Below are positions 9,890 to 63,544 of a stretch of DNA of 64,000 nucleotides, piece after piece. This stretch comes from Pseudomonadota bacterium (GTDB taxonomy: Bacteria > Pseudomonadota > Alphaproteobacteria > Rickettsiales > UBA3002). Location of the stretch: the NCBI GenBank assembly GCA_040384265.1, contig JAZKJM010000004.1:1-64000 (forward strand). Reading direction: 5' to 3'. Numbering within the stretch: the first letter of the stretch is position 1; every line of letters starts with the position of its first letter. The position numbers and the translations under genes are program-made. Below the pieces are notes generated by a model. The model saw only the letters and a list, made by a program, of their open reading frames with translations. It had not been told where the DNA came from and did no database searches.

Positions 9890-9910
9890 ATCCCGGCACA
9901 AGGCCGGGAT
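9890..9910. repeat. REP-like hairpin, second sequence type
   Basis: Stem ATCCCGGC (9890-9897) and GCCGGGAT (9903-9910) with loop ACAAG, followed by GACAATGG. Same general design as the other hairpins (GC palindrome then GACA), with a different stem. Confidence 0.75.
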
Positions 9911-9970
9911 GACAATGGAGAGGGTGGGGTGCTACGAGGGAACAGGAAAGAAAATGGATAGCACTCATTT

Positions 9971-10056
9971 AGCCGTGCGCAGCGCGACGGCGCGAAGCCG
10001 GAGCGTCAGCGAACGAGGGGGAGCGGTAGCTGGGGGCGGCTTTGCCCCCACGCGGC
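9971..10056 (+). repeat. Dispersed GC-rich palindromic element, intergenic copy
   Basis: Core AGCGAACGAGGGGGAGCGGT near 10008-10027, then a hairpin GGGGGC...GCCCCC at 10032-10050. The reverse complement of 63275-63346 matches most of this stretch with a few substitutions and a small indel. This copy is between genes; the other is inside the cytochrome bc1 chaperone gene. Confidence 0.75.
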
Positions 10057-10097
10057 AAAGCCGCTAAGCAACAAGACGGCGCCCAGCGCTTTCCCAG

Positions 10098-12641: not shown

Positions 12642-13463
12642 ATGGCTGGTAAATACATGGGAAACATGAAGAATATGCGAACATCTTCGATGCGCGCCTT
12701 CAGTCTGGTTGAACTGTCGATTGTGCTGGTGATTCTTGGGCTGATCGTCGGCAGTATCCTTTCCGGGCGCAGCCTGATCCGCGCATCGGAATTGCGTGCA
12801 GTTGGCACCGAATATGGCCGCTGGGTGACGGCGACGCATACGTTTCGCGACAAATATTTCGGGCTCCCGGGCGATCTGGCCAATGCTACCATGGTTTGGG
12901 GCAAGGATAACGTGAAATGTACCGGCGACACCGGCACGACGACCGTACCTGGCACCTGTAACGGCAATGGCGATGGTAATATCTATATCAACAGCGCCAC
13001 GACTGGCGCCACTGGGGAAATGTTTCAATATTGGAAGCAGCTGGCGCTTTCCGGGCTGATCGAAGGCACCTATAGCGGCGTCAACACGGGGGATGCGGAT
13101 ACGGCGACCATTGGCACGAATGTCCCCGCGTCTAAGTTGAACCAGGCGGGCTGGACAATGGCTTACGGCAGTATTATTGTCGCTGGCCCGGCAGCGCTCA
13201 ACGTAGATTACAACTCCAACCTATTCATATTTGGTCAGAACAATGTGAGTAATGAGCCGACGACGAACATCACGCTTTCGCCGGAAGAGGCGTGGAACAT
13301 TGATACCAAGATGGATGACGGCAAGCCCGGTCGTGGGCGTATCATCGGTCTGCGGTGGGCCCTTTGCACAACCGCTGCGGCCAACACCGATCTGGATTCG
13401 GCCTACCTGCTTAATAATGGTGGCGCGGTTGGTTGCGCGCTGATCTTCTTCCCACGGTTTTAG
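12642..13463 (+). CDS. Type IV prepilin-like protein, copy 1
   Basis: 273 aa from the first ATG; ATGs at 12657 and 12666 are equally possible. A prepilin leader with a short basic N-terminus, then AFSLVELSIVLVILGLIVG: cleavage would fall before the Phe, with the invariant Glu at +5 and one hydrophobic helix. The globular part has FRDKYFGLPGDL and several Cys residues that could form disulfides. About 75 percent like the next gene by eye, suggesting tandem duplication. Candidate promoter TTGCGT-N17-TAAACT ends about 30 bases upstream. The prepilin peptidase gene cpaA is at 47.9 kb. Major-pilin versus pseudopilin role cannot be told. Confidence 0.85.
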   Translation: MAGKYMGNMKNMRTSSMRAFSLVELSIVLVILGLIVGSILSGRSLIRASELRAVGTEYGRWVTATHTFRDKYFGLPGDLANATMVWGKDNVKCTGDTGTTTVPGTCNGNGDGNIYINSATTGATGEMFQYWKQLALSGLIEGTYSGVNTGDADTATIGTNVPASKLNQAGWTMAYGSIIVAGPAALNVDYNSNLFIFGQNNVSNEPTTNITLSPEEAWNIDTKMDDGKPGRGRIIGLRWALCTTAAANTDLDSAYLLNNGGAVGCALIFFPRF

Positions 13464-13498
13464 GTCGTGGGATAGTGCTGGCGCGGCGATTGTAGCGC

Positions 13499-13526
13499 TT
13501 GCATGGATAGGCCGTTGCGTTACACT
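13499..13526 (+). promoter_or_regulatory. Candidate promoter of second prepilin gene
   Basis: TTGCAT (13499-13504), a 16-base spacer, then TACACT (13521-13526), about 30 bases before the ATG at 13556. Resembles sigma-70 boxes, by inspection only. Confidence 0.35.
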
Positions 13527-13555
13527 GTGCAGGATGTCCTTTGGAGATATTTACT

Positions 13556-14362
13556 ATGCTGAATCATAATAAATTCTCATCCCCTTCTTCCCGTTCAGCG
13601 TTCAGCCTGGTTGAGCTGTCCATTGTGCTGGTGATCCTTGGGTTGCTGGTCGGCGGCATTCTTTCCGGGCGCAGCCTGATCCGCGCATCGGAATTGCGAG
13701 CGGTCGGCACCGAATATGGCCGTTGGGTGACGGCAACGCACACGTTCCGCGACAAATATTTCGGCCTTCCCGGCGATTTGGCCACCGCCACGATGATCTG
13801 GGGCAAGGATAACGTCAAATGTACCGGCGATACCGGCACGACGACGGTGCCCGGCACCTGCAATGGCAATGGCAATGGCAATATCAATTTCAACAGCGCC
13901 ACGACGGGTGACACCGGGGAAATGTTCCAATATTGGAAACAGCTGGCGCTGGCCGGGTTAATCGAGGGAACCTATACCGGGGTCAATGGCGGGGATGCCG
14001 ATACGGTGATTATTGGTACGAACGGGCCGATGTCCAAGGTCAACCAGGCAGGCTGGGCGGCGGTGCACGGTACGGGCGTTGTTGCGTTAGGCGTCTCGTA
14101 TTTTAGCGTGAGTTATGCATCGAATCTCCTGCTGTTTGGTCAGGCGACGGCGAACGATATTCCGGCAACAGCCGCTATTGCGCCGGAAGAAGCGTGGAAC
14201 ATCGACACCAAGATGGATGATGGCAAGCCGGGCCGTGGCCGGATTATCGGCGCGCGTTGGAGCACGTGCACCAACGCGTCAGGCAATACGGATATCGATA
14301 CGACGTATAAGCTCACTGACCCCAGCATCGCCTGCACATTGGTGTTTTTCCCGCAGTTTTAA
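13556..14362 (+). CDS. Type IV prepilin-like protein, copy 2
   Basis: 268 aa from the ATG at 13556, chosen because GGAG at 13543-13546 is well spaced; an in-frame TTG at 13541 is less likely. Same leader (AFSLVELSIVLVILGLLVGG) and body as copy 1. Identity is very high over about the first 130 residues, falls in the middle (about 160-220), and rises again around EEAWNIDTKMDDGKPGRGRI. Conserved ends with a variable centre fit diversification of a surface-exposed pilin face. The gap to copy 1 is 92 bases. GGCCACGCG-type dyad DNA follows the stop (14364-14375) without a T-run. Confidence 0.85.
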   Translation: MLNHNKFSSPSSRSAFSLVELSIVLVILGLLVGGILSGRSLIRASELRAVGTEYGRWVTATHTFRDKYFGLPGDLATATMIWGKDNVKCTGDTGTTTVPGTCNGNGNGNINFNSATTGDTGEMFQYWKQLALAGLIEGTYTGVNGGDADTVIIGTNGPMSKVNQAGWAAVHGTGVVALGVSYFSVSYASNLLLFGQATANDIPATAAIAPEEAWNIDTKMDDGKPGRGRIIGARWSTCTNASGNTDIDTTYKLTDPSIACTLVFFPQF

Positions 14363-26304: not shown

Positions 26305-26393
26305 GTCATTGCGAGCGCAGCGCGGCAATCCAGTCTTACTTTCTTGCTTCGGCAAGCCTAAGGGCTGGATTGCCGCGCTGCGCTCGCAATGAC
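26305..26393. repeat. Perfect 29-bp inverted repeat with nested UUCG hairpin
   Basis: Arms at 26305-26333 and 26365-26393 are exact reverse complements (29 of 29). The 31-base spacer holds a second hairpin CTTGC-TTCG-GCAAG at 26343-26356 with a UUCG tetraloop. It lies between the convergent recQ and emrB genes, and could end transcription from both sides or be a miniature mobile element of the GTCATTGCGAGCG type seen in several Alphaproteobacteria. Confidence 0.9.
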
Positions 26394-62270: not shown

Positions 62271-62924
62271 ATGACGCTTAACGTCACAGGTCTGCCCGAC
62301 ACATCGTCGGCGGCACCGCAGGTTCGTGCGGTGGCGCAGGTGATTTCTGCGCCGGGCATTACCGATGCGGCGACCATCGCCCGCCAGCAGATGGTGGCGG
62401 CAGCACCGGCGCCAACCCTCATCGCGGCGTATGCGGCCCAGGTTGCCACGCCGCCCAAACCGCCCGTGCGCACGCCAGCCCCCAGTTCCTCCAGCGCGTT
62501 TGCCGCGCAATTCATCGCGCAGACACCGGGCGCGACGGCGGATGATCTGGAGCTTTTTTCCGTTCCCGCCAAACCGCAGGATGCGCCGGAGCAGGCCGTG
62601 GTGGAGGATGATTTCTTGAGTGCCCTGCGCATTGCGCGCGGCGATATTCCGGCGATGGCAGCAAAAGCGCCAGTGGCAGCAAAGGCTGAGCCCGCGCCAC
62701 TTGCTGCGCCGCCGCCTGCCGTTGTTGCGGTAGTGGCGGCGAGTGTGCCTGATATCACGATTCGCACCACGCCAGCGCTCGCAACCGCCCTTGGCTTGCC
62801 ATTGAGCGTTGCGGTGCCGGTGAAAAAGCAAACCCTGCTCACCACACGCGGCACGCAGGCCTATCAACTGGCGGAAGCGCGGGTGCAGGGCATCCGCCGT
62901 GAGCCGCTGACGGCGGTTCTTTAA
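62271..62924 (+). CDS. Ala/Pro-rich hypothetical protein
   Basis: 217 aa. ATG preceded by AGGATGG. About 45 percent Ala plus Pro; likely disordered, with a short ordered region near DLELFSVPAKPQDAPEQAVVEDDFLSALRIARGD and a C-terminal stretch LLTTRGTQAYQLAEARVQGIRREPL. No signal peptide. No family recognised. Upstream 118 bases are AT-rich (GGTTAAAATAG, GGATAAAAG), likely its promoter. Its stop overlaps that of the convergent bc1-chaperone gene. Confidence 0.55.
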   Translation: MTLNVTGLPDTSSAAPQVRAVAQVISAPGITDAATIARQQMVAAAPAPTLIAAYAAQVATPPKPPVRTPAPSSSSAFAAQFIAQTPGATADDLELFSVPAKPQDAPEQAVVEDDFLSALRIARGDIPAMAAKAPVAAKAEPAPLAAPPPAVVAVVAASVPDITIRTTPALATALGLPLSVAVPVKKQTLLTTRGTQAYQLAEARVQGIRREPLTAVL

Positions 62925-63544
62925 GCGAGCGTCGCCGCATCCGGCCAGCGATAATGGCCTTCCAGAATCGTCGCTGTATCAATCGCGGCCAATTGGGCGG
63001 TCATGGTTTCGATATAGCGCGCCATGCGGTCGAGCTGGGCGACATCGCCCTGTTCCACTGTGCCATACAGGTTGCGGGCAAGCGCCGTGCGCAACACCGC
63101 CGCATCGCTGAGGCCCGCCGCATAGGCCTGCAAACTGCCGTGATAGGACTTGCCCATCTTCTTGATCCGCTTGCTGACGCCAGTATCGGCGATGCCCATT
63201 TCGCGCAGCGAGCGATCCATATCCGCAAAAAATGCTTCGCTGAGGAATTGCCCGAACTGTTCCAGCGCTTCGCGCAGGGGGCGTTCCGCCCCCGCTACCG
63301 CTCCCCCTCGTTCGCTCCGCTCCGGCTCGCCCGCAGGGCTACGCACCGCCGCGTCAGCCACCAACCGATGCTGGATCAGGAACTGATGCAGCACGATCAG
63401 CTCGAAGCGGCCATCGATCGTATCGGGCACTTGCGCGGTGGTGAAGAAAAAGGGATTTCGTGCAGCCGCAACGAGTGCTATATAGGTGGCGACCACCGCC
63501 GCAGGCGGCTTGGGAATGAACAGTTTACGAAGGGCGCCGAGCAT
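62921..63544 (-). CDS. Ubiquinol-cytochrome c chaperone (CBP3/UQCC1-like)
   Basis: 207 aa from the ATG at 63544, with GGAG six bases upstream; a TTG at 63556 is less likely. Helical domain: VVATYIALVAAARNPFFF, GRFELIVLHQFLIQHRL, then SEAFFADMDRSLREMGIADTGVSKRIKKMGKSYHGSL, the conserved family core. It helps assembly of the cytochrome bc1 complex. Residues about 67-90 (VRSPAGEPERSERGGAVAGA and following) are foreign to the family and come from an inserted palindromic repeat that keeps the frame. Gene pair with divergent bamE is typical of Alphaproteobacteria. Confidence 0.88.
   Translation of the reverse strand: MLGALRKLFIPKPPAAVVATYIALVAAARNPFFFTTAQVPDTIDGRFELIVLHQFLIQHRLVADAAVRSPAGEPERSERGGAVAGAERPLREALEQFGQFLSEAFFADMDRSLREMGIADTGVSKRIKKMGKSYHGSLQAYAAGLSDAAVLRTALARNLYGTVEQGDVAQLDRMARYIETMTAQLAAIDTATILEGHYRWPDAATLA
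63275..63346 (-). repeat. Dispersed GC-rich palindromic element, in-frame copy
   Basis: Reverse complement matches the intergenic element at 9971-10056, sharing the core GAACGAGGGGGAGCGGTAGC (plus-strand complement at 63292-63311) and the GGGGGC...GCCCCC hairpin (63276-63293). About 72 bases, a multiple of three, with no stop codon in the host frame. Confidence 0.75.

Follow-up and report, generated by a model that had tools for sequence, protein, structure and literature searches.

A family of palindromic hairpin repeats with in-frame copies in conserved genes of a Rickettsiales genus

Near one end of a 64,000-nucleotide stretch of a Rickettsiales genome (hereafter the window, i.e. the whole stretch that was analysed), the gene of a ubiquinol-cytochrome c chaperone contains a segment that resembles, on the opposite strand, an intergenic sequence at 9971-10056. 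Does this segment belong to the protein, or is it a copy of a repeat that entered the gene without breaking its frame? And does the genome host a protein-invading repeat family of its own, as the original prediction proposed by analogy with the palindromic elements of Rickettsia?

An insert in a cytochrome bc1 chaperone gene

The features of the window that bear on these questions are the following.

9940..9974, (+) strand: conserved left arm (GAACAGGAAAGAAAATGGATAGC...), present upstream of 12 of the 19 copies of this genome
9975..10067, (+) strand: full-length intergenic copy of the five-hairpin element (covariance model, 89 bits)
62921..63544, (-) strand: ubiquinol-cytochrome c chaperone gene (PF03981) with the insert (ATG at 63544, stop at 62921)
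63260..63346, (-) strand: covariance-model match of the hairpin-string element within the chaperone gene (66 bits)
63275..63346, (-) strand: in-frame insert VRSPAGEPERSERGGAVAGAERPL, 24 codons (residues 67-90, exactly 63346-63275)

The kinship of the two copies was confirmed by an inverted-repeat scan of the window, in which 10008-10035 pairs with 63289-63316 (28 nt, 96% complementary), and by a genome search with 9971-10056, which recovered the chaperone copy (C4:63286-63349, 85% identity, E 7e-12) and about 14 others at E <1e-3; BLAST of the 2.0-Mb genome yielded 16 matches at this threshold. The second copy is indeed intergenic, with no long open reading frame spanning 9975-10067.

The chaperone open reading frame scores 112.6 bits against PF03981 (Pfam cut-off 21.5) and is intact across the insert, which is absent from all 26 homologues of a 27-sequence alignment, including those of the congeners G001-G004. 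The net gain relative to these homologues is only approximate (about 20-28 residues) because linker length varies among them. Likewise, the ubiquinol-cytochrome c chaperone of PDB entry 6rwt_A aligns on both sides (query residues 14-64 and 93-162), with 28 query residues between the aligned blocks versus 2 in 6rwt. In the AlphaFold2 model (7-sequence alignment, mean pLDDT 84.7), the insert is predicted as a coil (pLDDT about 52-59) flanked by confident helices at residues 43-68 and 87-115, and would thus form a low-confidence loop joining two helices, at the position originally assigned to it.

Hairpin architecture and genomic distribution

The element measures about 93 bp and strings together five short hairpins (A-E) in succession; parsed by eye, it runs G[C/T]GTAG, hairpin A, AGCCGGAG, hairpin B, GAACGAGGGGGA, hairpin C, hairpin D, ACGC and hairpin E, with AGCCGGA between hairpins A and B and a strong GGGGG...CCCCC stem in hairpin D. 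GTAG (or GCAG) precedes hairpin A, as GCGTAGC in many copies and as GCGCAGC in many copies of this genome, GGTAGC often precedes hairpin D, and the unit is far longer than a REP. No Rfam family matches the element at gathering score, RNA genes being found only beside copies.

The stems of hairpin A vary by copy (for example GCCC-TGC-GGGC, GCGC-TTTACG-GCGC or GCCGCG-ATGGC-CGCGGC), and stems differ between copies yet remain complementary via compensatory changes. In 69 distinct model-fitted rows, two-sided changes occupy 194 cells, versus 58.8 ± 6.2 when shuffled and at most 42 in slid structures, and the covariation score is 0.345 versus 0.097 ± 0.008. As a model-fitted alignment leans towards the structure, changes were also counted on a plain, unfitted MAFFT alignment (21 versus 10.1 ± 2.4 shuffled, and at most 8 when slid). 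It is quite possible, though short of probable, that this covariation is mutational rather than selective, template switching in quasi-palindromes copying one arm from the other, a process compatible with the spread of a repeat. The stems vary block by block against fixed spacers, AGCCGGAG and GAACGAGGGGG, and template switching has been documented as a way in which perfect palindromes arise (PMC6649704); the conserved spacers and the module order nevertheless still suggest a constraint on propagation.

The surroundings of the copies differ between this genome (G000; 2.0 Mb, 95% complete) and that of another species in its genus (G004). The left arm (..AAAATGCATAGCC..), which is missing from the chaperone copy, accompanies none of the 67 copies of G004, where an inverted GCTACGC partner is found at 23 of the 67, mostly 20-29 bp away. 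In G000, a GATGACA REP-like motif lies within 200 bp of 10 of the 19 copies, and the recurrence of this motif, a conserved spacer and the element at about that number of copies suggests a composite unit. Other repeats of the window comprise a REP-like hairpin directly upstream of the intergenic copy (9900-9935, GGATCCCGG...CCGGGATGACA), a perfect 29-bp inverted repeat with arms 31 bp apart (26305-26393, GTCATTGCGAGCGCAGCGCGGCAATCCAG) that looks like a separate REP dimer, and two 300-bp repeats, 902 bp apart and 87% identical (12696-13897), that represent a probable tandem gene duplication.

A census of family f1 (G000-G013) with a covariance model, R1, built from 24 copies and used at E up to 0.01, found 19 copies in G000 and 67 in G004, with three weak matches in G013 and a single weak one in G001 and in G012; the remaining nine members searched had no match. 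A weak hit of 25 bp in G002 (E 8e-4), close to the RNase P RNA, was taken as chance. At E 1e-4 and with stricter filters, matches among 175 Rickettsiales were confined to G000, G004 and G013, with nothing outside family f1 in this sample, Rickettsia-like genomes included. A DNA search of 385 Alphaproteobacteria, a draw that probably left G004 out, matched G000 alone. As far as sampled, the element is restricted to the genus.

Within this genus, a seven-protein tree pairs G000 with G001, G004 joining next and G002 after it (support 0.99 and 0.94), and G001, the sister of G000, is essentially free of copies; loss, transfer or independent expansion may account for this pattern. Two positions are common to G000 and G004. 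One is in the gene of RsmE; at the other, which is empty in G001, a copy with the same orientation follows the SRP RNA gene at a distance of 18-25 bp (L002 1501-1591, L124 2001-2093). Either these copies are ancestral and were lost from G001, or the positions were re-used. The 6S RNA gene, too, is followed by a copy, about 40 bp away (L004 1290-1450).

Could the repeat then be a functional RNA or DNA structure (a terminator, a 3'-end stabiliser or a nucleoid site) spread by duplication, its copies in genes being accidental? The proximity to the SRP and 6S RNA genes and the covariation of the five hairpins would fit such a role, which is nonetheless improbable given the coding insertions in both orientations, the variable truncation of copies, the empty SRP site of G001 and the lack of a T run after hairpin D.

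In-frame copies in conserved genes

Open frames through the copies were screened, and the convincing cases were compared by alignment with the orthologues of as many as six relatives, the identities of the invaded genes being confirmed by NCBIfam. Nine in-frame copies found by the covariance model lie in conserved genes, three in G000 and six in G004, and each invaded gene has an insert-free orthologue in relatives.

bc1 chaperone, G000: forward frame 1; empty in 26 homologues
RsmE, G000: single forward copy between ...ALLSFG and KNWAVLAGPEGGF, frame 1 (L011/L120); empty in G002, G003, G005 and G006
RsmE, G004: inverted pair at a site identical to that of G000, reverse-strand reading (L011/L120); same empty sites
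BamB leader, G000: about 30 residues after MKSLLH, ahead of the hydrophobic stretch of the lipoprotein signal, frame 3; empty in G001-G004
PyrD, G004: frame 2; empty in G000-G003, G005 and G006
CarB, G004: head-to-head pair, frame 1; empty in G000, G002, G005 and G006
MutY, G004: short net gain, reverse-strand reading; empty in G000-G002, G005 and G006
RadA, G004: in-frame insert; empty in G000-G002, G005 and G006
HemW, G004: long insert, reverse-strand reading; empty in G000-G002, G005 and G006

With about 19 copies here, about 67 in a congener and these nine insertions at sites empty in orthologues, the proposed protein-invading repeat family of this genome is supported. The copies are predicted to add 15-60 amino acids to the encoded proteins. 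The BamB leader insert includes a piece of the left arm, and the start codon placed there is our own reading. The carB gene of G004 (L193) also holds a separate in-frame insert of a diverged subfamily, seen by eye (peptide VRSA-VREPRSEGVS...AKGDLPPS); RsmE contains similar peptides, as does a YejE-like permease at its C-terminus, and this subfamily is underdetected by the R1 model.

An assembly or binning artefact, for which the status of the named relatives as MAGs might speak, is scarcely conceivable: it is largely refuted by the presence of the family in two independent genomes and by reading frames that remain open across every listed in-gene copy, and many of the loci lie within long contigs.

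Read codon by codon, the inserts use each of the three forward frames as well as the reverse strand, which indicates that the DNA structure, and not a peptide, is what is propagated, and argues that such inserts are tolerated by-products rather than recruited peptides. An intrinsic openness of the element as an adaptation to coding was rejected, since copies are open on average in 2.86 of six frames versus 3.47 for mononucleotide shuffles; being slightly less open than shuffles, they give no sign of selection for coding, and surviving copies would simply use whichever frame is open. Only three of the 19 copies of G000 lie in genes, the remainder being judged intergenic from spanning open reading frames. 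If the genome is assumed to be mostly coding, this suggests that insertions in genes are purged. Selection would remove disruptive insertions, the in-gene survivors being those copies that landed in tolerant loops with the frame kept, and the encoded peptide is most likely a neutral by-product.

At the in-gene sites, neither a target-site duplication nor terminal inverted repeats were evident by eye, but the orthologues have diverged too far for boundaries to be placed to the base. The bamB insert may be flanked on either side by CTGCA, which was not seen at other sites.

Mode of spread and comparison with known repeat families

Taken together, the element (about 93 bp) is very probably a palindromic, non-autonomous repeat that spreads as DNA, sometimes into coding sequence, and that within the sample is confined to this genus. 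How would it move? One possibility is that the repeats are GTAG-type REPs on which a RAYT (Y1 tyrosine transposase) acted in trans, the enzyme being now lost or missing from the assembly. In its favour are the motifs before hairpins A and D, the inverted dimers 20-29 bp apart that are common in G004, and the single PF01797 Y1 transposase gene of G004; GTAG REPs are known to form dimers, to have alternative complementary stems and to occur within genes (PMC3733652). This is unlikely, however: a search of G000 (95% complete) for PF01797 stayed empty up to E 10, the G004 gene is flanked by different, GGGCACAATAAATTATTGTGCCC-type repeats (read by eye) with no R1 element in its locus, and the five-hairpin unit is larger than a REP. 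A link to RAYT is not supported.

For a non-autonomous repeat that probably lacks a dedicated transposase in G000, either cross-mobilisation or spread via folded single-stranded DNA or RNA intermediates may be envisaged, the most likely model being a hairpin element of the RPE/CGTC-REP type. A stronger version, in which a selfish hairpin string would dispense with any transposase, spread via folded single-stranded DNA or RNA, have its stems kept perfect by template switching and re-use its landing sites, appears doubtful; the re-use of sites is proposed because copies share the rsmE and SRP RNA positions in two species while the SRP site of G001 is empty.

Among known families, the Correia/NEMIS and ERIC/RU-1 MITEs are also non-autonomous and small, and may become fused in frame to open reading frames of the host (PMC2229807), whereas no terminal inverted repeats or target-site duplication were recognised in the present element. 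Intragenic GTAG and CGTC REPs, often found in repair genes, encode 20-30 amino acids (PMC3733652). The element resembles them in the GTAG that adjoins a hairpin in many copies, inverted dimers, alternative complementary stems, intragenic copies and repair-gene targets (here radA and mutY), and differs in its longer and more modular five-hairpin unit of about 93 bp and the lack of a RAYT in G000. Wolbachia palindromic elements, described as protein-coding palindromes (Ogata 2005, as cited in PMC2229807), are also coding palindromes in a Rickettsiales genus outside Rickettsia; the two were compared by description, and in the sampled genomes of the order R1 matches family f1 alone. The original prediction had named the Rickettsia elements as the established coding palindromes; the literature also describes them in Wolbachia (as cited in PMC2229807) and among intragenic GTAG/CGTC REPs (PMC3733652).

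PMC2229807 and PMC10969869 review the in-frame presence of RPEs in many Rickettsia genes, along with related studies of Wolbachia, of tmRNA and of RNase P RNA. RPE-1 and its like share with the present element the order, short dispersed palindromes, intergenic as well as in-frame copies in conserved genes and the lack of a known transposase; they differ in forming one long stem-loop instead of a string of five short GC-rich hairpins, and the present element is read in all three forward frames. The chaperone insert has no NCBIfam match, the RPE1 peptide (TIGR01045) included, and RPE1 is absent from all 14 genomes of family f1. It is abundant in family f12 of the same order (up to at least 37 matches per genome), a count that we take to be the signature of Rickettsiaceae; from this abundance the order was judged to be Rickettsiales, the window presumably coming from another of its families. 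The element is not RPE1, the shared order notwithstanding.

Protein-coding palindromes were formerly seen as a peculiarity of Rickettsia and Wolbachia. With conserved targets (CarB, PyrD, RadA, MutY, RsmE, HemW, the BamB leader and the bc1 chaperone) and an unrelated element, the present family adds another example from this order and suggests that the phenomenon arises repeatedly in Rickettsiales irrespective of the repeat sequence. Two congeneric genomes with about 19 and about 67 copies allow gain, frame choice, loop choice and stem covariation to be measured. In-frame copies in conserved genes, at sites that are empty in orthologues, are the mark of protein-coding palindromic repeats, and they are present here. 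Coding palindromes as such are known already, while this family, apparently undescribed within the open-licence literature, and these hosts are new; it is best read as a new palindromic family working like the palindromic elements of Rickettsia and Wolbachia.
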